40,125 nt of DNA from Clostridia bacterium (GTDB taxonomy: Bacteria > Bacillota > Clostridia > Oscillospirales > CAG-272), in contig JAFTTS010000028.1 of the NCBI GenBank assembly GCA_017466685.1, positions 1-40,125 on the forward strand, read 5' to 3'. The notes below the pieces were generated by a model. That model was not told where the DNA came from and made no database searches. It saw nothing but the letters and a program-made list of their open reading frames with translations. Shown here one piece after another: positions 32,521 through 40,125 of this stretch. The translations under genes were made by a program, and so were the position numbers. Each line of letters opens with the position of its first letter. Position 1 is the first letter of the stretch.

Positions 32521-32551
32521 AAAGAAAAAACCACCCAATTAAGGATGGTTT
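32521..32551 (-). terminator. Terminator of the zinc-ribbon/EF-Tu-barrel gene
   Basis: On the minus strand AAACCATCC pairs with GGGTGGTTT (one G-U) around TTAATT and runs into TTTTTTCTTT. It lies about 100 bases downstream of the minus-strand stop at 32653. Confidence 0.78.
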
Positions 32552-32592
32552 ATGTTGGAACTTACGCCTAATTTTAATACAACGATTTTAAG

Positions 32593-32603
32593 CGGTGCAT
32601 TTT
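32593..32603 (+). repeat. Left copy of the CGGTGCATTTT direct repeat flanking the zinc-ribbon gene
   Basis: An 11-base exact match to 34559-34569, about 1.97 kb apart, bracketing the AT-rich gene. It is too short to prove a transposition footprint. Confidence 0.45.
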
Positions 32604-32609
32604 CTCCCG

Positions 32610-32638
32610 AAGAAAAGTTTCACGGTGAAACTTTTCTT
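32610..32638. repeat. 29-bp perfect palindrome with one-base centre
   Basis: AAGAAAAGTTTCAC (32610-32623), G, GTGAAACTTTTCTT (32625-32638). The 14-bp arms are perfect. It stands 15 bases after the minus-strand stop at 32653, so it may act as a second terminator or be a mobile palindromic repeat. Confidence 0.8.
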
Positions 32639-32652
32639 TTAATAGTTAAATC

Positions 32653-34467
32653 TTATTCTGCTTTATAGTGTTTTCTGCCAAGATGTACGCACCCAGAAAC
32701 CCCAAACACTTTGTTTTCAGGGTGTTTTTTATAATCAATATAAGGTACTCCACAGTGCGGACAGTTGAAGGAATTATAATAGCGGAAGGTTTTACCTTCT
32801 GTTTCATATTTCCAAGATTCCTTATCAATGTCGTATGCAACAATTTCACAAACATCTAAGCCATCATCCGAATAAGCCACGTCGCTTTGTGCCATATAAA
32901 AAGCATATCCATGGAAAGCAAAGGATTTGCCACAATCAGGGCATATACCAATCAATCTAATATTGGCAGGTGTGGTGTAGCCTTGATATTTGAGTCCCTT
33001 CATTACCAAATCCTGACCACGCGAAGCATCACGCCTTTGTTTTGACAAATCACCACCGCACGCCAAAAGATGTCCTTCCATACGGTAACCAATATCGTTT
33101 GTGTTCATTTTTCTATCTTCAGATGTATCAGAAATAAAACCATCCATTTGCATTGTCGGAACAGAAGGATTGCCGGTGAAACCAACTCTGACGGAAATCA
33201 AGAAATACTTTCCTGTAAAATCTTCCTCGCCTTCTGTTTGCAAACAATATTCTACTGTTTTTACACCATCTTCATAGAAGGAAATAATCGGTTCTTTTTC
33301 CGCAAGAGGTATGTTGCCTGTAAATTCAAATTGCGGAGTTAACGGATGACAATTTTTCCATTCTAAAAAGACTTTTGAATTAAAGCAAATTGATGTTCCA
33401 TCGCATTTTATCGGATGAAGAGCGCTTTCATCATTTTCATATTTAAGAATTGCATCATGAATATAGTCCCGAAAATGCTGGATGTTTGTAGTGTGTTCGG
33501 ATTTGAGCACATTAGCGTAGTAATCCAAAACAATCCACGCTTTAAGTAACTCATCACATGAAGCTTCTTTTACTTTATTTATTAAAAACTCGGGGTTTAA
33601 AAAAGAAAGAGATTGGTTAACAGCTAAAATCGTTTCTACCAAAGCAGATTTGAAACGATTTTCTTTCATTTCATCAGGCATACCTTCGGGTATTTTCCAA
33701 GAAAGCTTTGTTTTCAATTCTATTACGCCTACATTCATTACACAGGATAATGATTTCAGTAATTCTAATTGTGCTTCAACCATTCTCAAATCAGTGGGCA
33801 TATAACGAATTGCTACTGCTTTGATTTTTTGTCTGTCATCATCTTCAAACGAGAAAGTTCCTAATTTAAAGTCTTTGCTCTCGAGTTTAGGTGAATTCTT
33901 GACATTTTCCCCATTATTTTCATTTACACCTTTATCAAAACATTCAGCACAAATGTCGTTCTTGTGAAGATATTTAAGAGTCAACTCTCTTTTGCACTTT
34001 TTGCACACAAAAGTATCTTTTGTCTCAGAAATCTTTTTAGGAGCGGAAACTATATCATCTCTTTTGAAATTCTGCGGATCAAAGGTTTCAATTAACAGCC
34101 CTATATTGTCACCTTCTTTCGCATTGTTCACAAGTTTTCGAAACATTTCAATTCCAATAACTTTATATTCTTTGTCATTAACAATTACCGTATCTCCGAA
34201 ACATACCGTTCCGCTACTAATTCTGCCTGTTAAAACAACTCCTTTGTTTTTGACAAAAAACACGTCTTCGACTGACATTTTAAAATCTCTGTGTTCTGAA
34301 AGATTTCCGCCATTTTGATTTTTAAGTGATATTTTTTTGGTATAGCATTCCTGACAGTACTGTTTACCGTCTATTTTCCAGTACTTTGTTTCGCCAACCT
34401 CTCTAAAGCATTGTGCACACTTGATGAACGAACGCTCTTTTTTCTTAAATAAATCAAAAAATCCCAT
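32653..34467 (-). CDS. Zinc-ribbon protein with an EF-Tu domain-II beta barrel and no GTPase domain
   Basis: 604 residues from the ATG at 34467, with AGGAGGAG just upstream; a longer frame to 34533 runs through the promoter. Zinc ribbon 1: C17-x2-C20 and C38-x2-C41. Residues about 62-143 match EF-Tu domain II closely (MSVEDVF, GVVLTGRISSGTV, then VIGIEMFRKLVNNAKEGDNIGLL). Zinc ribbon 2: C155-x2-C158 and C173-x2-C176. A long helical middle (about 210-400) and a C-terminal region with CPDC (about 508) and CPHC (about 568) follow. No P-loop or other GTPase motif is present. The gene is visibly more AT-rich than its neighbours and has its own promoter and terminator. I do not recognise the whole protein. 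Its function is unknown; binding of a ribosomal or RNA partner is one guess from the barrel. Confidence 0.85.
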   Translation of the reverse strand: MGFFDLFKKKERSFIKCAQCFREVGETKYWKIDGKQYCQECYTKKISLKNQNGGNLSEHRDFKMSVEDVFFVKNKGVVLTGRISSGTVCFGDTVIVNDKEYKVIGIEMFRKLVNNAKEGDNIGLLIETFDPQNFKRDDIVSAPKKISETKDTFVCKKCKRELTLKYLHKNDICAECFDKGVNENNGENVKNSPKLESKDFKLGTFSFEDDDRQKIKAVAIRYMPTDLRMVEAQLELLKSLSCVMNVGVIELKTKLSWKIPEGMPDEMKENRFKSALVETILAVNQSLSFLNPEFLINKVKEASCDELLKAWIVLDYYANVLKSEHTTNIQHFRDYIHDAILKYENDESALHPIKCDGTSICFNSKVFLEWKNCHPLTPQFEFTGNIPLAEKEPIISFYEDGVKTVEYCLQTEGEEDFTGKYFLISVRVGFTGNPSVPTMQMDGFISDTSEDRKMNTNDIGYRMEGHLLACGGDLSKQRRDASRGQDLVMKGLKYQGYTTPANIRLIGICPDCGKSFAFHGYAFYMAQSDVAYSDDGLDVCEIVAYDIDKESWKYETEGKTFRYYNSFNCPHCGVPYIDYKKHPENKVFGVSGCVHLGRKHYKAE

Positions 34468-34494: not shown

Positions 34495-34523
34495 ATTATA
34501 CAACAAAATATTATAATTTTCAA
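34495..34523 (-). promoter_or_regulatory. Promoter of the zinc-ribbon/EF-Tu-barrel gene
   Basis: Minus strand TTGAAA (34518-34523), 17-base spacer, TATAAT (34495-34500). It predicts a short leader of about 20 bases. A 14-bp hairpin abuts the -35 box. Confidence 0.78.
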
Positions 34524-34524
34524 G

Positions 34525-34569
34525 AAAATGCACCGTTTTGATGATGTTTTCTTATAAACGGTGCATTTT
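34525..34569. repeat. 14-bp inverted repeat upstream of the zinc-ribbon gene; contains CGGTGCATTTT
   Basis: AAAATGCACCGTTT (34525-34538) pairs perfectly with AAACGGTGCATTTT (34556-34569). The word CGGTGCATTTT at 34559-34569 also occurs at 32593-32603 on the other side of the gene in the same orientation. The hairpin may be a bidirectional terminator isolating the promoter; T-tracts are short. Confidence 0.65.
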
Positions 34570-34692
34570 AATTCAAAAAAGTTTCTGTGTGAAATAAGAA
34601 AACGCCCTTGAAGGCTATTTTGCACTTCATGGATGTATGAATGGTTCAATCGAAGGCTTATCTTTTTTGGATAATTCCTTTATTTAAGACTT

Positions 34693-36264
34693 TTACGGCA
34701 TAGAAAAGAACCGTAACTTTGTATCAAAATTACGGTTCTTTTTTGGTGACCCTATCCGGTCTACAGGCGAACACTCGTTTAGTGCACTTTCTACGTCTGT
34801 GATTGTAATATTTACTCCGCTGTGACCGCCTCCGGAGGGGTCAAACACGATTTTTGCATGATCATCGTACAGGTATATGGCTACTACAAAGTTTTTTATA
34901 AGATCCTCACGGTATTGTGGATCGTCTATATCACCGTTTCGGAATGACAGAAGAAATTCCTTTAGTTCATCTATATTGATTTCCGGTATATTAGCAGTGA
35001 GTTCGGCGAGCTGAACTTTGATTTTAGCTTGCTCCGATTCAAGCTCGAGCAGTCTGCTTTTTGTGGTATCTGTGAACACGCCTGCTTCTATCGCACGCAT
35101 GATATTTTGTATTGCCGTATCATTTGTTTTTTGCCGTTCTTCGAGAATTGCAATATCCGGGTTATCTCTTTGCTCATCAAAGTATCTGGCAACACCTTCG
35201 GCGATTTGCGTAATAACAGAATCATTCAAAATGTGTTGGTAAACTCCAAGAGCTATATCATGCTCAAGCTGATCTCGTCGGACGTCTTTCTTTTTGCATC
35301 CTCCACCCAATCGCTTGTCTCTGCACGTGTAGTAATGGTGTTTTATTCCCGATTTACTTGTGCCGCACATTCCAATCATAGGCTCTCCGCATTCTCCGCA
35401 AAAAAGAAGTCCGGTGAGAAGATACCTTTCATTGGTGCGACTTTTACCTCGTGGGTTCTTTTTATTTTTCAAAATATACTGTACCTCCTCGAATTGCCGT
35501 TTATCTATTATTTGAGGCATACCGCCTTCGACACGAATACCGTTGAAAACGTATGTACCTGTGTATCGCTCGTTTGATATGATGGTGGTGAAGCTGTTCT
35601 TGTTCCATTTGTTTCCTCGGCTATTTGGGATTCCTCGCGAATTAAGATCTCTAACGATACTTGTAAACATCTCGCCAGCCAAGACACGGGAGAAAATTTC
35701 TTTAACGATCGGGGCGGCAGCCTCATCTACCACAAAATGCCCGGTTTTATCCGATTTATACCCATACGGCGCAGGACCGTTGGCACGGCATTTGAGCGCA
35801 TTGTCGGCTTGATTACGCTTGATATCCTCGCTCAGATTCTCGCTGTAGAACTGATTGAGATTCATCATTGTACGCCGTGCGAATCTGCCTGAAGCGTTGT
35901 CTGCAAAGGCTTCTTTTGCGTAAAAGACTTGTATGCCGTATTTGTCCATTTCGCTTTCAAATATAAGTGCGTTGACCATGTTTCGGGCAATGCGGCTGGA
36001 TTTATAAGCGATTACGGCAGCAAAATTTCCTTTTTCGGCATCCCGGCGAAGCTTCTGATACTGCGGTCGGCGGTCAGAACGCCCGGACACTGCGCTGTCG
36101 GCATATACAGCCACGACTGAAAGATTATTGGCGGCGGCATATGCCTTGCACTCCGCGATTTGCTGTTCTATAGATTCTTCACGCTGATTATGTGATGAAA
36201 AGCGAGCATATATCACGGCAGGGATTTCGCCGAGAGGGAATGTTTGCTTTTTTGTTCGCGCCAT
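34693..36264 (-). CDS. Large serine recombinase (site-specific integrase)
   Basis: 523 residues from the ATG at 36264, with GAAAGGGGG about 6 bases upstream; a frame to 36291 would add nine residues through the RBS. Resolvase domain about 12-150: VIYARFSSHNQ places the catalytic serine at residue 23, followed by DSAVSGRSDRRPQYQKL and YKSSRIARN. The recombinase domain (about 170-275) includes PAPYGYK and FTTIISNERYTGTYV. The zinc beta-ribbon begins LLFCGECGEPMIG and continues with HHYYTCR and GGGCKKK. A coiled-coil segment (about 375-425) follows. It catalyses integration and excision of the element. The final 15 or so residues are encoded across a terminator hairpin and may not be native. Confidence 0.94.
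   Translation of the reverse strand: MARTKKQTFPLGEIPAVIYARFSSHNQREESIEQQIAECKAYAAANNLSVVAVYADSAVSGRSDRRPQYQKLRRDAEKGNFAAVIAYKSSRIARNMVNALIFESEMDKYGIQVFYAKEAFADNASGRFARRTMMNLNQFYSENLSEDIKRNQADNALKCRANGPAPYGYKSDKTGHFVVDEAAAPIVKEIFSRVLAGEMFTSIVRDLNSRGIPNSRGNKWNKNSFTTIISNERYTGTYVFNGIRVEGGMPQIIDKRQFEEVQYILKNKKNPRGKSRTNERYLLTGLLFCGECGEPMIGMCGTSKSGIKHHYYTCRDKRLGGGCKKKDVRRDQLEHDIALGVYQHILNDSVITQIAEGVARYFDEQRDNPDIAILEERQKTNDTAIQNIMRAIEAGVFTDTTKSRLLELESEQAKIKVQLAELTANIPEINIDELKEFLLSFRNGDIDDPQYREDLIKNFVVAIYLYDDHAKIVFDPSGGGHSGVNITITDVESALNECSPVDRIGSPKKNRNFDTKLRFFSMP
34704..34742. terminator. Bidirectional terminator hairpin overlapping the recombinase 3' end
   Basis: AAAAGAACCGTAA (34704-34716) pairs perfectly with TTACGGTTCTTTT (34730-34742) over 13 bp around a 13-base loop. 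The plus strand gives a T-tract within TTCTTTTTT; the minus strand gives TTCTTTTCTATG. It covers the last codons of the recombinase reading frame. Confidence 0.72.
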
Positions 36265-36281
36265 GTATACGCCCCCTTTCT

Positions 36282-36297
36282 CCGTCCACATGGACGG
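36282..36297. promoter_or_regulatory. Inverted repeat just upstream of the recombinase ribosome binding site
   Basis: CCGTCCA-CA-TGGACGG, 7-bp perfect arms. It lies 4 bases from the GGGGG of the RBS on the minus strand, so it could be an operator or an RNA stem limiting recombinase translation. It does not match the GTCAA-N5-TTGAC operators. Confidence 0.5.
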
Positions 36298-36354
36298 GAT
36301 TTTATTTTACGCTCTACCTATAACGCGACCGACACATTAATATTAATATAATAT

Positions 36355-36762
36355 TTACCTCGCAAAATAATACTCCAATGCCATACGCATGAAGTCCTCG
36401 GTTACTTCAAAATGTTCCGCAAGCTCCCACACGCTTATGTCGTTGTATTTTTTTATAATCTTTTTTAACTCATCCTCGTTGATGAGTTTTTTTATTGCGT
36501 AAACATTCGCCTTGCGCTCCACGTATCCGCGATTGTCTATCGGGGAATAGAGCGAATAAAATGCGCCCGTCATGCAGTGTCCAAGCTCATGAGCGAGATG
36601 TACACGTTCTTCGGCGCGAGTTTGCATCACCTTATCATCTATGCCGATGAACATATTGTCATCTATATTTAGCGACACGGATTTTGTTTCGGGCAACTTA
36701 ACTGTGCAATCAATTATAACGCCAGCCTTTTCCGCTTCGAGATACATTTTGTCCGATATCAT
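36355..36762 (-). CDS. ImmA/IrrE family metallopeptidase
   Basis: 135 residues. Zinc motif HELGH at 58-62 within ERVHLAHELGHCMTGAFYS, followed by ERKANVYA (82-89), which supplies the third ligand in this family. ImmA cleaves the ImmR repressor of ICEBs1 and IrrE/DdrO pairs work likewise, so this protein probably inactivates the repressor encoded directly upstream. The two overlap by ATGA, a strong sign of a working pair. An inducing signal such as DNA damage is inference from those relatives. Confidence 0.9.
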   Translation of the reverse strand: MISDKMYLEAEKAGVIIDCTVKLPETKSVSLNIDDNMFIGIDDKVMQTRAEERVHLAHELGHCMTGAFYSLYSPIDNRGYVERKANVYAIKKLINEDELKKIIKKYNDISVWELAEHFEVTEDFMRMALEYYFAR

Positions 36763-37298
36763 TTTTTCTCCTTAAGATATTTTGCCTTGACATAGTCTGC
36801 GAACTGCTTAACTTCATCCCACATTGCATCGGTAACTTCGCCGTCACCGCCGAACAGTGCGACTTTGACGTCGCTGTAGTCGGAGGGTGTGTCTTTTGTT
36901 TCTTCTCGACCGAGAAGATAATCGACTGATACGCCGAAAAAGTTTGCCAGCGTATCCAATTTGTTATTGAAGAAATCTCCATAACCGTCGCACCAAGCTT
37001 TTAGCGTTGCAATGCTGGTGCCAAACGTAGTTTCGATATCATCAAACGAGAAGTCGGTTTCATCTAACAGAGATTTTACACGTTGGCGTGCGATTGATAT
37101 TCCCTCGGAGTCAACGGATTCTCCCAAAAGATAGTCAAGCGAAATATTAAATATTTTTGCTATATTGTTAAGAACGTCAATGCTCGGTTCGCTTTGATGT
37201 GTTTCCCACATGGCTACCGTTGAGCGAGAAACATTTAATAATTCTGCCAATCTTTGCTGGCTACAATGATTAAATGTCCTGATTTCTTTCAAATTCAT
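36759..37298 (-). CDS. XRE-family phage repressor with two HTH-like units
   Basis: About 179 residues from the ATG at 37298 (a TTG at 37301 is also possible; GAGGTG lies 6-9 bases upstream). Unit 1 (about 1-60): LKEIRTFNHCSQQRLAELLNVSRSTVAMWE, then IAKIFNISLDYLLGE. Unit 2 (about 67-132) is degenerate, with SFDDIETTFGTSIATLKAWC and LANFFGVSVDYLLGRE. The unit ends are clearly related, so an internal duplication is likely. It is followed by the ImmA/IrrE gene with a 4-base overlap. It should bind the GTCAA-N5-TTGAC operators upstream, shutting the Cro-side promoter. Confidence 0.9.
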   Translation of the reverse strand: MNLKEIRTFNHCSQQRLAELLNVSRSTVAMWETHQSEPSIDVLNNIAKIFNISLDYLLGESVDSEGISIARQRVKSLLDETDFSFDDIETTFGTSIATLKAWCDGYGDFFNNKLDTLANFFGVSVDYLLGREETKDTPSDYSDVKVALFGGDGEVTDAMWDEVKQFADYVKAKYLKEKK

Positions 37299-37320
37299 CA
37301 ATTATATCACCTCTACTTAT

Positions 37321-37349
37321 ATTATAACGTCAATTTAATTGACAGTCAA
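37321..37349 (-). promoter_or_regulatory. Promoter of the repressor operon
   Basis: Minus strand TTGACT (37344-37349), 17-base spacer, TATAAT (37321-37326). Operator O1 fills the spacer. The predicted leader is only about 15 bases. Confidence 0.8.
37329..37343. promoter_or_regulatory. Operator O1 (GTCAA-N5-TTGAC)
   Basis: GTCAATTTAATTGAC, a 15-bp palindrome between the -10 and -35 of the repressor promoter. An extra GTCAA half-site lies at 37345-37349. Confidence 0.75.
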
Positions 37350-37369
37350 TATTTTTTTAAAATATTTTT

Positions 37370-37384
37370 GTCAAACATATTGAC
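37370..37384. promoter_or_regulatory. Operator O2 (GTCAA-N5-TTGAC)
   Basis: GTCAAACATATTGAC, overlapping the -35 box of the rightward promoter. Confidence 0.75.
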
Positions 37385-37408
37385 AAACAGAAAAGAGCGT
37401 GGTATAAT
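37380..37408 (+). promoter_or_regulatory. Rightward early promoter (Cro side)
   Basis: TTGACA (37380-37385), 17-base spacer, TATAAT (37403-37408). Perfect consensus, so it would be strong unless repressed. O2 covers the -35 and O3 the start point. Confidence 0.88.
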
Positions 37409-37411
37409 TAT

Positions 37412-37426
37412 GTCAAGAAACTTGAC
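37412..37426. promoter_or_regulatory. Operator O3 (GTCAA-N5-TTGAC)
   Basis: GTCAAGAAACTTGAC, 6-bp perfect arms around AAA, at the expected transcript start of the rightward promoter. Confidence 0.78.
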
Positions 37427-37441
37427 AAGAGAGGTGATGAA

Positions 37442-37645
37442 ATGCTTATAAAAGACAAAAGACTGTCATTGGGGTTGACACAAGAGGAGCTCGCTCAAAA
37501 GGTGGGTGTGCAAAGAACGACAGTAACTATGTGGGAAAACGGCGAAGCTTATCCGAGAGCAGACAAACTTGTGAAGCTGTCGAAGTTGTTCGGCTGCTCC
37601 ATCGATGAGCTTATGACAGACGCATCTGGCATAATGCCGGAGTGA
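37442..37645 (+). CDS. Cro-like small XRE HTH protein
   Basis: 67 residues, a single HTH_3 domain: LSLGLTQEELAQKVGVQRTTVTMWENGEAYPRADKLVKLSKLFGCSIDELM. It begins 16 bases after operator O3 and is divergent from the repressor, the classic Cro position. AGGTGA lies a few bases before the ATG. It probably binds the same operators and blocks repressor synthesis during lytic growth (inference from lambda-type switches). Confidence 0.88.
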   Translation: MLIKDKRLSLGLTQEELAQKVGVQRTTVTMWENGEAYPRADKLVKLSKLFGCSIDELMTDASGIMPE

Positions 37646-37685
37646 GATGTTGCATTTGTCAATATTTAATTAGGAGGTTTTATCT

Positions 37686-38462
37686 ATGAATCAAATTCAA
37701 ATTTTCAACAACGAAGAGTTCGGCGAAGTACGAACAATCACAGAGGGCGATAAGATGCTGTTCTGTGGAAGTGACGTGGCAAAAGCACTGGGCTATGCAA
37801 AACCCCGCAATGCTTTGAACGAACATTGCAAGGGAGCCCTAAAACGGGGCACCCCCACCGAAGGAGGAATGCAGGAGATGATCTTCATCCCCGAAGGCGA
37901 CGTCTACCGCCTCATCATCAGAAGCAAGCTTCCGTCTGCGGAACGTTTCGAGCGGTGGGTGTTTGACGATGTTATCCCGACCATTCGAAAGCACGGTGTT
38001 TACGCCATAGACGAGATGCTTAATAATCCGGATGCGTTGATTGCGGCACTTACCGAGTTAAAAGCAGAACGTGCAAAGCGTGTCGAGTTGGAATCTACTT
38101 GTGCGGTGCAGATACAGCAGATCGCAGAGCTACAGCCTAAAGCGAGCTATTACGACCTCATTTTGAATTGCAAGGATCTTATGAGCGTTACCAAGATCGC
38201 CAAAGACTACGGTAAATCTGCGATATGGCTCAACGATAAATTGCATGAGCTCGGTGTTCAGTTTAAACAGGGCGATATATGGCTACTCTATCAAAAGTAT
38301 GCTAACAAAGGCTATACCAGCACCAAGACACATGAGTTTCTCGGTACAGATGGTGCAAACCACGCAAGGGTATCTACTTATTGGACACAAAAAGGTCGGC
38401 TATTTATATATGACCTATTGAAAGGCTGTGGAGTTTTGCCGATCATAGAGCAGGTGAGTTAA
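37686..38462 (+). CDS. Phage antirepressor (Bro-N plus ANT/KilAC domains)
   Basis: 258 residues. Bro-N domain about 1-110 (IQIFNNEEFGEVRTITEGDKMLFCGSDVAKALGY and FERWVFDDVIPTIRKHGVYA). A short coiled coil covers about 118-150. The ANT/KilAC domain spans about 155-250 (SVTKIAKDYGKSAIWLNDKLHELGVQF, WTQKGRLFIYDLL). Such proteins counter the phage repressor or act as early DNA-binding regulators. AGGAGG lies about 8 bases before the ATG. A single GTCAA half-site sits in the short gap upstream. Confidence 0.92.
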   Translation: MNQIQIFNNEEFGEVRTITEGDKMLFCGSDVAKALGYAKPRNALNEHCKGALKRGTPTEGGMQEMIFIPEGDVYRLIIRSKLPSAERFERWVFDDVIPTIRKHGVYAIDEMLNNPDALIAALTELKAERAKRVELESTCAVQIQQIAELQPKASYYDLILNCKDLMSVTKIAKDYGKSAIWLNDKLHELGVQFKQGDIWLLYQKYANKGYTSTKTHEFLGTDGANHARVSTYWTQKGRLFIYDLLKGCGVLPIIEQVS

Positions 38463-38498
38463 ACGAAGATGTTACATAAGAAAAGGAGATGACACAAG

Positions 38499-38852
38499 AT
38501 GGAAAACAATGTACAAGCAGTCAATAACTCTGTGCACGATGTAATTTTCGAAGCCCAAGAACAATCCACCGAGCTTCTAATAGGGCTTCAACGTCTCAAG
38601 TCCCTTTTACATTTCCTCGGTGAATTATTCGAGCTTGAAACGCTGAATCCTAACAGTCCAAATGAGCGTACTCGTACACGGTCACAGTATGTGCTTGCGC
38701 ACTATCGTGAATATCAGAGCTTGTTTGAAATCGCATTTAACACAGTACATGATCTTAATTCGTCGGTGGATACGTTAAGTGACACAATTTCAGCGGCACT
38801 TGACGGTATGAAAAAAGAAACTCGAGAATTAATTACAAAAAAGGAGGACTAA
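38499..38852 (+). CDS. Hypothetical phage early protein, helical
   Basis: 117 residues, predominantly helical (ELLIGLQRLKSLLHFLGELFELETL, then a charged RTRTRSQYVLAHYREY and a helical C-terminus with DTISAALDGMKKETREL). No recognised domain, membrane helix or cysteine motif. AAAAGGAG lies 12 bases before the ATG. It is co-directional with the antirepressor (36-base gap) and with the next gene (3-base gap), so it is part of the early transcript. Function unknown. Confidence 0.8.
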   Translation: MENNVQAVNNSVHDVIFEAQEQSTELLIGLQRLKSLLHFLGELFELETLNPNSPNERTRTRSQYVLAHYREYQSLFEIAFNTVHDLNSSVDTLSDTISAALDGMKKETRELITKKED

Positions 38853-38855
38853 ACC

Positions 38856-39104
38856 ATGAAAAACAAAAAATCGCCATTACCGGAGCACGTTATTCGCGCT
38901 ATGCGGCGTGATGATGGCTACATCATTACCGAGGCATCGGAGAACGGAGTGCAGTACGTCGTCTACGTTCTCACCACAGATGGATACAAGCCGATGCGTA
39001 CCATTCCTGAATCCGATGTAAAGCGACTTTGGGACGAAGATACGATAAAGTACGTTGGTGACGGCAAGTGGAAGCTGACTGAGCCGAAAAAAGAGGAGGA
39101 TTGA
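38856..39104 (+). CDS. Hypothetical phage protein
   Basis: 82 residues. It looks like a small beta-rich domain (DGYIITEASENGVQYVVYVLTTDGYKPMRTI) with a charged lysine/glutamate C-terminus. GGAGG lies 8-9 bases before the ATG. It is packed between neighbours with gaps of 3 bases on each side. No recognised family. Confidence 0.75.
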   Translation: MKNKKSPLPEHVIRAMRRDDGYIITEASENGVQYVVYVLTTDGYKPMRTIPESDVKRLWDEDTIKYVGDGKWKLTEPKKEED

Positions 39105-39107
39105 ATC

Positions 39108-39284
39108 ATGGCAAGACCAATACCAGAAGTTAAAATGTTAGAGCCGGGTGAACAGTTGGAAATTAATCTCGATGTGTGGACGTCATGGAGACGTGATGGA
39201 CTTAATAAAGCTACTCTTGCCGCATTCCAACGTTGGAAAAAGGGCAGAGAAACAACAAAGAACCCCACGGAGGCAACAACATAA
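39108..39284 (+). CDS. Small hypothetical phage protein
   Basis: 58 residues, reading MARPIPEVKMLEPGEQLEIN, then LDVWTSWRRDGLNKATLAAF and a lysine/threonine-rich end. AGAGGAGG lies about 6 bases before the ATG. The TAA shares its last base with the ATG of the next gene (TAATG), which supports both being translated. Function unknown. Confidence 0.68.
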   Translation: MARPIPEVKMLEPGEQLEINLDVWTSWRRDGLNKATLAAFQRWKKGRETTKNPTEATT

Positions 39285-39523
39285 TGGCAGACATAATGAA
39301 AGAGCAGATTGAGAGTGAGCTTGAGAAGCTCCGTAGGGACAAGCCGAACGGTCAGTTGCTTGCACAGCGGTACAAGAAGGCGAAGCGTGCATCTGTGAAT
39401 GCAGTGCTCGATTCGGACGGCAAGGGCGATCATTTTTACGGTAATTCGCAGTTCGTTAATTATGCGGCGAAGACGGCGTGTCAGTTTTACGCAGTCGAAG
39501 TTGGTATCAACTTAAAGGAGTGA
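39284..39523 (+). CDS. Small hypothetical phage protein
   Basis: 79 residues from the ATG at 39284, preceded by GGAGG about 10 bases upstream; a longer frame from 39233 would overlap the previous gene widely. Basic N-terminal helix (QIESELEKLRRDKPNG), then GDHFYGNSQFVNYAAKTACQFYAVEVG. No recognised family. Start coupled to the upstream stop. Confidence 0.7.
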   Translation: MADIMKEQIESELEKLRRDKPNGQLLAQRYKKAKRASVNAVLDSDGKGDHFYGNSQFVNYAAKTACQFYAVEVGINLKE

Positions 39524-39528
39524 CTATC

Positions 39529-39705
39529 ATGAAAAAGAAATTTGGGTATAACGAAAAGGTGCTTGCACTGATCGCAACGGCGATACTTGCGGCAATGTTT
39601 ACGTTGCCGGTATGCGCGTGGGAACTGTGGTCAACTGTCGATACGGCGAGAGTGGACAAGCCGGTACATATTTGTGAAGTGTGCGGTTCGGAGGTGTCGG
39701 GCTGA
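39529..39705 (+). CDS. Small exported or membrane-anchored phage protein with CxxC
   Basis: 58 residues from the ATG at 39529 (AAGGAG about 10 bases upstream). A basic start (KKKFGYNEK) leads to a hydrophobic stretch (about 11-26, VLALIATAILAAMFTLP) ending in VCA, like a signal peptide or single membrane helix. The short mature part has CEVCG near the end. The stop overlaps the next gene (TGATG). Function unknown. Confidence 0.65.
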   Translation: MKKKFGYNEKVLALIATAILAAMFTLPVCAWELWSTVDTARVDKPVHICEVCGSEVSG

Positions 39706-40125
39706 TGAGATATACAGACGAGGACATATCCGAGATGCAGGGTATGATGCGAGGTGCGGCTGATCCTGCGGCACAGGTTGAAATCCTGGCGCAAATTTAC
39801 GGCGGTACGGCTGACGGTATCTGTATTGCGCTTGGTATTCCGCTTCTGCCGATTGAGCTTACGCCGAGTATGGTACGGCACGGTTGGACAGTTGAAACGA
39901 TAGTGACGATTCGTGAAATGTTCCGTATCGGGAAGTGTCAGCGAGAGATCGCGGCGGCTGTTGGTTTAAGTGAGCACGCGATTTACGGTTTCTTCAGTCG
40001 GCACAGAGGTATATTCCCGGAGAAGTACAGCAAGTGTGAGAATCCCAAGAGGTACAAATACAAGAAGATCACGCCGAAGGACATCGAGAGAATCCGTGGA
40101 CTCTTTCGAGAGGGCTGGAACATCA
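39705..40125 (+). CDS. HTH-containing phage protein, C-terminus cut by window edge
   Basis: Open frame from the ATG at 39705 to the right edge, at least 140 residues. The first 50 residues include a helical ...DISEMQGMMRGAADPAAQVE segment. A helix-turn-helix-like stretch follows: IVTIREMFRIGKCQREIAAA, then VGLSEHAIYGFFSRHRGIFP. A second similar start, ITPKDIERIRGLFREGWNI, runs off the edge. Tandem HTH units suggest a DNA-binding regulator or small terminase-like protein, but neither is proven. It overlaps the upstream stop by one base. Confidence 0.7.
   Translation, partial: MRYTDEDISEMQGMMRGAADPAAQVEILAQIYGGTADGICIALGIPLLPIELTPSMVRHGWTVETIVTIREMFRIGKCQREIAAAVGLSEHAIYGFFSRHRGIFPEKYSKCENPKRYKYKKITPKDIERIRGLFREGWNI

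Follow-up and report, generated by a model that had tools for sequence, protein, structure and literature searches.

An EF-Tu domain-2 barrel without a GTPase as an exchangeable head on a conserved cysteine-rich core in a Clostridia bacterium

The gene analysed here lies in a window of 40,125 nucleotides (the whole stretch of DNA that was studied) from a Clostridia bacterium, and encodes a protein that has an EF-Tu domain-2 barrel and no GTPase. Comparison of the protein sequence with its relatives indicates that the constant part of the chain is a cysteine-rich C-terminal tail, which is joined to varied heads in an uncatalogued bacterial family, and that heads and tail are exchanged by recombination. 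We give an even chance to the explanation that the protein is a modular adaptor: its barrel, an interchangeable head, would dock the conserved four-cysteine core to a partner and would not itself act in translation. Features of the gene and its surroundings are given in the Table.

Table. Positions of the gene, the segments of its product and the neighbouring features in the window
Feature	Position	Strand	Remarks
Gene, 604 aa	32653..34467	-	ATG at 34467, stop at 32653-32655
Start peptide MGFFDLFKKK, residues 1-10	34438..34467	-	low confidence in the model
First CxxC...CxxC ribbon, residues 17-41	34345..34419	-	LIM-like, below Pfam cut-off
EF-Tu domain-2 barrel, residues 60-147	34027..34290	-	Pfam, NCBIfam and PDB matches, AlphaFold2/Foldseek
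Second CxxC...CxxC ribbon, residues 155-176	33940..34005	-	HypA-like, below Pfam cut-off
Helical module, residues 200-346	33430..33870	-	in 51 of 145 core-bearing proteins (among matches listed)
Conserved C-terminal core, residues 352-604, with stop	32653..33414	-	
CPDC (509-512), first half of the core's predicted zinc ribbon	32932..32943	-	
CPHC (569-572), second half of the core's predicted zinc ribbon	32752..32763	-	
725-nt stretch 91% identical to L011	32575..33299	-	codon 390 to 78 nt past the stop
Second hairpin, perfect, downstream of the gene	32610-32638		
Terminator-like hairpin downstream of the gene	32528..32551	-	predicted
Sigma-70-like promoter, TTGAAA-17-TATAAT	34495..34523	-	consensus match 11/12
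Large serine recombinase, upstream of the gene	34693-36291	-	

The assignment of the barrel draws on both sequence profiles and a structure model. PF03144 matches residues 76-132 in Pfam with an E-value of 1.4e-9 and 38.7 bits (cut-off 30.3), and the NCBIfam EF-Tu models align at about residues 58-150 with scores far under their full-length cut-offs. Ninety-one distinct PDB sequences match the region; the best 60 of these 91 are EF-Tu, EF-Tu fusions, SelB/eEFSec or EF-1A, and within the same 60 the best-matching stretch starts at 58-61 and ends at 144-156 (ends read from the table of matches). An AlphaFold2 model of the window protein, calculated from a 58-sequence alignment, has a mean pLDDT of 89.6 and is placed by Foldseek on EF-Tu 8yly with an rmsd of 1.8 over 90 columns (E 1.8e-7) and on 1d2e with an rmsd of 1.8 over 88 columns, while most other Foldseek rows have larger rmsd values and alignments longer than the barrel. 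The predicted fold thus bears out the initial annotation, which had read residues of about 62-143 as EF-Tu domain II. Its claim that the chain lacks G motifs also holds: the P-loop and NKxD are absent from all 604 residues and PF00009 has no match in Pfam, and two DxxG strings (DNIG and DFTG) occur. EF-Tu domain 3 gave no PF03143 match at E <= 1 in the window protein.

Cysteine pairs are found, as had been noted, on both sides of the barrel and at the C-terminus. The three sets of CxxC pairs are at 17/20 and 38/41 on the N-terminal side of the barrel, at 155/158 and 173/176 on its C-terminal side, and at 509/512 and 569/572 in the core, where a zinc ribbon is predicted. The LIM-like match scores 18.7 bits in Pfam (cut-off 22.9) and the HypA-like match 20.0 bits (cut-off 28.9). 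A further 457 residues come after the barrel.

The initial annotation took the barrel as the centre of the protein, a view that does not survive comparison with the relatives. A homology search returned 454 proteins, of which the best 120 were examined (the first 98 precede the EF-Tu rows), and a search with an alignment of the core returned 349, again with the best 120 examined. Among the matches listed, the core is present in at least 145 of the 222 proteins collected, and its heads include the barrel in 14 of the 145 (window protein included), the helical module in 51 and an unrelated YLDD module in 60. Aligned relatives have residues 352-604 in common and differ in their upstream parts; the heads other than the barrel consist of transmembrane helices, ribbons and helical modules. 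Across the 145 core-bearing proteins among the matches listed, Cys 509, 512, 569 and 572 are kept in 143, 143, 142 and 141 (two gaps at 509/512), and R462, K490, R504, Y532 and S533 are kept in 143. The window protein is itself P0001, which is included in the counts of 145 and 14 and left out of the trees described below. The 14 family barrels other than that of the window include P0121, which is shortened, and P0097, which lacks the core; P0097 has an EF-Tu barrel, an MGFFDKFKKK start and an SseB domain in place of the core.

Heads were typed in 97 proteins, namely the first 96 (window included) and P0121, and 96 of the 97 have the core. The barrel is found in 14, the LIM-like ribbon in 16, the second ribbon in 16, the helical module in 39 and the YLDD module in 51; transmembrane segments are predicted in 71 and an MGxFD start is present in 17, with both in a single protein. 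A Pfam scan of 58 members at E <= 0.01 found the barrel in 11, LIM in 8 and any other family in three at most, and no clear fold match was obtained for the core. On these sequence comparisons the constant tail and its varied heads make up a bacterial family that is not covered by the Pfam and NCBIfam scans made here.

Heads and core recombine, as judged from the uneven identity along the chain and from the distribution of heads over the relatives. The window protein and P0002 are identical at 58 of 59 residues over positions 1-59, at 83 of 88 in the barrel and at 226 of 253 in the core, and at 77 of 146 in the helical module. The DNA match to L011, a locus from an Oscillospiraceae MAG, spans the last 215 codons, the stop and the hairpin; identity drops on both sides, abruptly so at codon 390. 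The two proteins have heads without relation to each other (E 0.071 for the best blastp hit), and the match points to a recent exchange of 3' DNA between the window gene and a gene with an unrelated head. L011 and L015 are in one genome and have heads that are unrelated to one another (best E 0.94).

Trees of the barrel and of the core show how closely the heads follow the core. The barrel tree has 83 rows and 99 columns, with many open forks and with seven EF-Tu-like fragments left out, and it places all 15 family barrels on one side of a branch (98/95). The short solo barrels take an intermediate position between family barrels and EF-Tu rows, apart from P0163, which is solo by length but falls with EF-Tu and is possibly a fragment of it. 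The core tree has 142 rows and was built by a quick method with three partial-core rows left out; 62 of its 139 inner branches are open. On this tree the 13 barrel rows need 12 changes against a mean of 12.6 in shuffles (163 of 500 shuffles are as low), and the well-supported branches force only three of these changes, not 12. The LIM and second ribbons need 15 changes against 17.3 in 100 shuffles. Ribbon and barrel heads thus look almost unlinked from the core, on a core tree that is poorly resolved. The helical module (23 changes against 40.7) and the YLDD module (22 against 45.8; 100 shuffles each) both follow the core beyond chance, and are therefore not freely swapped.

The predicted location of the core is the cytosolic side of the membrane. 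Among 94 core-bearing proteins with a transmembrane segment predicted before the core by a plain hydropathy window, the core side of the last segment is richer in Lys and Arg in 88, poorer in two and tied in four, and the number of predicted segments is even in 78. Predicted transmembrane segments before the core are missing from all 22 proteins that begin with MGxFD (under a different threshold, 1 of 17 has them), and this mutual exclusion has a Fisher value of 2.6e-12, uncorrected for relatedness. Another 29 proteins have neither a transmembrane segment nor the start by pattern, and several of these carry looser versions of the start (judged by eye). The MGFFDLFKKK start, of a kind similar to that of most short solo barrels, is possibly an anchor to the membrane surface that replaces a transmembrane anchor. 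We propose that the transmembrane heads of relatives hold the core at the inner membrane face, and that proteins of the window type would be kept at the membrane face or in the cytosol through their start peptide. The partner to which the constant core is delivered would differ with the head; the core would act on it by binding or scaffolding built on its predicted zinc ribbon, and swapping of heads by recombination would supply bacteria with new specificities.

EF-Tu domain-2 barrels without a GTPase also occur elsewhere. A search with residues 1-190 returned 54 proteins, EF-Tu pieces among them, and 40 of these are no longer than 165 residues; the start MG(L/F)(F/L/W)(D/S/N) is found in 32 of these 40 short solo barrels. 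A cysteine ribbon precedes the barrel in P0127 and P0146, so that the pairing of ribbon and barrel is also seen in short proteins. Among the matches listed, three proteins (P0127, P0154 and P0172) are named 'EF-Tu/IF-2/RF-3 family GTPase' in NCBI with no GTPase domain listed, and some GTPase-free barrels are thus filed under a misleading name. A barrel that lacks a GTPase is thus nothing unusual. A search of titles and abstract openings for stand-alone EF-Tu domain 2 found no paper on such proteins. Barrels are also found in larger proteins: two neighbouring genes of genome G103 (L063, 3490-8487 and 8551-10563) encode SLH and Ig-type domains together with EF-Tu domain 2 above the cut-off, domain-3 matches of 31.4 and 24.5 bits (cut-off 27) and no GTPase. 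Their starts resemble signal peptides by eye, and the proteins are predicted to be secreted. Two genes of L064 (434-1879 and 1913-3151) likewise encode predicted secreted SLH proteins with EF-Tu domain 2 and no GTPase. These cases show that bacteria reuse the EF-Tu domain-2 barrel as a building block, within the cell and probably also outside it.

The presence of this barrel raises the question of whether it still holds tRNA. The pocket description in PMC4329189 names I231, V237, E271 and L289 as the domain-2 residues of EF-Tu that hold A76, E226, D227, F229, T239 and N285 as those that hold the aminoacyl group, and R300 for the tRNA 5' phosphate. These residues were placed on our alignment via the motifs VEDVF and G(V/I)EM, and every named letter fits. 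The corresponding positions of the window protein are E67, D68, F70, V72, V78, T80, E107, N121 and L125, so that eight of the nine pocket residues are kept and the counterpart of I231 is Val; the counterparts of R274 and R300 are Arg. Retention was compared across 39 columns of the barrel that are conserved among 28 EF-Tu rows, nine in the pocket and 30 outside it. The window protein retains 0.89 of the pocket against 0.50 of the other columns (permutation 0.043), the window clade of five 0.84 against 0.51 (0.030), the other family barrels 0.61 against 0.37 (0.045) and the 40 solo barrels 0.91 against 0.72 (0.059), permutation values that are marginal and that take no account of burial. As a weak control we aligned other factors of the genome: L005 and L008, which we take to be TypA and IF-2, aligned at useful length and both lack the EMFRK motif, only short pieces of L007 and L010 aligned, and L003 (EF-Tu by place, in the wrong frame), L004 and L009 gave nothing useful.

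If the barrel keeps the grip of EF-Tu on the 3' end of aminoacyl-tRNA, the protein would serve to sense charged tRNA or to sequester it. The eight retained residues, their excess over other columns and the two arginines speak for this reading, but the same pocket is kept where it would have no such use. One of the two predicted secreted SLH proteins of G103 keeps nine of nine pocket positions and its neighbour keeps seven, and no aminoacyl-tRNA is expected outside the cell, so that retention of the pocket is not readable as tRNA binding; two further barrels of this type, in G215, keep two and one of nine. The key glutamate E271 is kept in none of the ten family barrels outside the window clade (seven have Asp and three another residue), and these barrels still retain pocket positions, which argues that part of the already marginal signal is not due to tRNA. 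Domain 1 of EF-Tu, with His67 and Lys90, is missing altogether. We dropped tRNA binding as the main reading once the predicted secreted barrels proved to keep the pocket, and consider it quite unlikely. The suggestion in the initial annotation that the barrel could target or mimic translation factors finds no direct support.

The surroundings of the gene bear on a different explanation. A GTG located 22 codons upstream of the ATG also opens the frame (626 residues), and the ATG is favoured: close relatives begin MG(F/L)(F/L)D, and AGGAGG lies just 5' of it. The gene looks monocistronic, with the end of the recombinase gene at 34693, a promoter-like site between the two genes and hairpins downstream; promoter-like sites are not enriched in the region as a whole, where seven were found and 7.8 were expected by shuffling. 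The gene is AT-rich as first described, with a GC content of 35.6% compared with 46.9% in positions 1-32426 and 44.7% in positions 34693-40125. The former flank holds cell-division, cell-wall and aro-type genes, read from their translations. The latter encodes a large serine recombinase, an ImmA/IrrE-type peptidase, a CI-type repressor and an Ant/KilAC antirepressor, and is the terminal part of a prophage or comparable element whose other end is outside the window. Short pieces of this flank match 26 phage records with 60-80% DNA identity. An imperfect 45-nt direct repeat is found on both sides of the gene (32586-32631 and 34552-34595), with 33 of 43 aligned bases identical by eye and a score of 40 that was reached by 2 of 500 mononucleotide shuffles. 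Its 15-base core has three single-mismatch copies on other contigs, and we do not claim it as an att site; a perfect inverted copy of this core gives a hairpin at 34525-34569.

The gene might accordingly belong to the neighbouring prophage, as a moron or defence gene that the phage carries, an idea suggested by its AT-richness beside these phage-type genes and by its absence from the five congeners searched. The gene that follows the chromosomal neighbour in the five congeners is a different one by their ORF lists, and no empty site could be defined. We regard a prophage origin as improbable given the distribution of relatives. None is encoded in 46 viral stretches that matched a pattern, and a search of 50,697 phage records gave 15 matches, with none extending over 80% of the query; the 10 listed of these 15 match the barrel only. 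PADLOC found no match (PADLOC-DB 2.0.0, no family at E <= 1), and loci L011-L020 hold mostly chromosomal-looking genes by eye. A serine recombinase does adjoin the gene, as the initial annotation had seen, but the link to a mobile element is one of adjacency.

Relatives of the protein are patchily distributed. A match was found in one of 146 related genomes, namely its own, and in two of 394 genomes of the order, its own included. The other is G264, which we count with the genome of L016 as one case because the match is at the same place with the same E-value. Thirteen loci were found in genome contigs, with goat and water-buffalo gut named for three, and the other 11 genomes tested have one match each (the genome of L011 and L015 has two). 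Core-only proteins of 267 and 269 residues are seen in the Bacteroidetes loci L021 and L022, a core fragment in a 150-residue frame in L023 (Bacteroidetes), and a core-only gene on the Persicobacter plasmid pPP2 (L099). Altogether 83 plasmid records match; among the 10 listed, pPP2 is core-only and the other nine are barrel-only. At L014 (7688-10672), three tandem genes with MGxGSYxAxDW-type starts lie beside a cysteine-rich protein near the core gene, and the one scanned has no Pfam match.

Patchy occurrence would also suit a function in immunity. Polyimmunity proteins, in the account given of them in PMC3482391, combine unrelated immunity domains in one chain, usually have no toxin genes in their operon, and include a large example from Clostridium sp. 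L2-50. By analogy, heads and core might each block a class of toxin, with the barrel serving as decoy against toxins that make use of EF-Tu domain 2. Such a decoy is conceivable because the CDI toxin NC101, in the account of PMC9086364, makes contact with EF-Tu domain 2, and the immunity protein of this toxin does so with domains 2 and 3. An immunity family lies near the core in two of four Bacteroidetes loci (core-only genes or fragments): L023 1199-1549 is the only Imm33-like gene of G467 (a 3.1-Mb genome) and is about 180 bp from the core fragment, and L022 1526-2251 is one of two SUKH-1 genes of G466 (5.4 Mb), 3.8 kb from the core in the same 8-kb locus. These families were chosen after the neighbours had been seen, however, and the scanned neighbours of L021 and L099 gave no recognised immunity family. 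Eight neighbours in five clostridial loci yielded VWA and methyltransferase domains and no immunity family. The window protein has no known immunity domain in Pfam or NCBIfam and no match in PADLOC. Immunity domains are also usually less conserved than this core. We consider the polyimmunity reading unlikely. Broader still, and in our estimation very improbable, is a scheme in which EF-Tu domain 2 has been freed as a decoy or lure, on head-swapping polyimmunity-like proteins inside the cell and, outside it, on S-layer proteins that carry both domain 2 and domain 3, and would soak up toxins or factors that grip EF-Tu; the core would then hold the decoy at the membrane.

The modular adaptor that we favour can be set beside several known systems. 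The binding partner of the barrel would tell whether the best-known contact surface of EF-Tu now serves as a decoy or simply as an adaptor. The window protein shares with EF-Tu the barrel fold, eight of nine tRNA-pocket residues and the EMFRK and GDN motifs, whereas it has neither the G domain nor domain 3 and has other modules attached. The short solo barrels are similar in the missing G domain and in the MGxFD-type start, but are 165 residues or less in length and have no core. In the SLH/Ig proteins of L063 the EF-Tu barrel is likewise reused without a GTPase, in contrast with a domain-3 match besides and a predicted location outside the cell. Polyimmunity proteins are also multi-domain chains of unrelated modules, with their large example from a Clostridium, although the window protein differs in having no recognised immunity domain. 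Overall, a constant tail with varying heads is the mirror image of polymorphic toxins, in a family in which recent exchange of DNA is visible.
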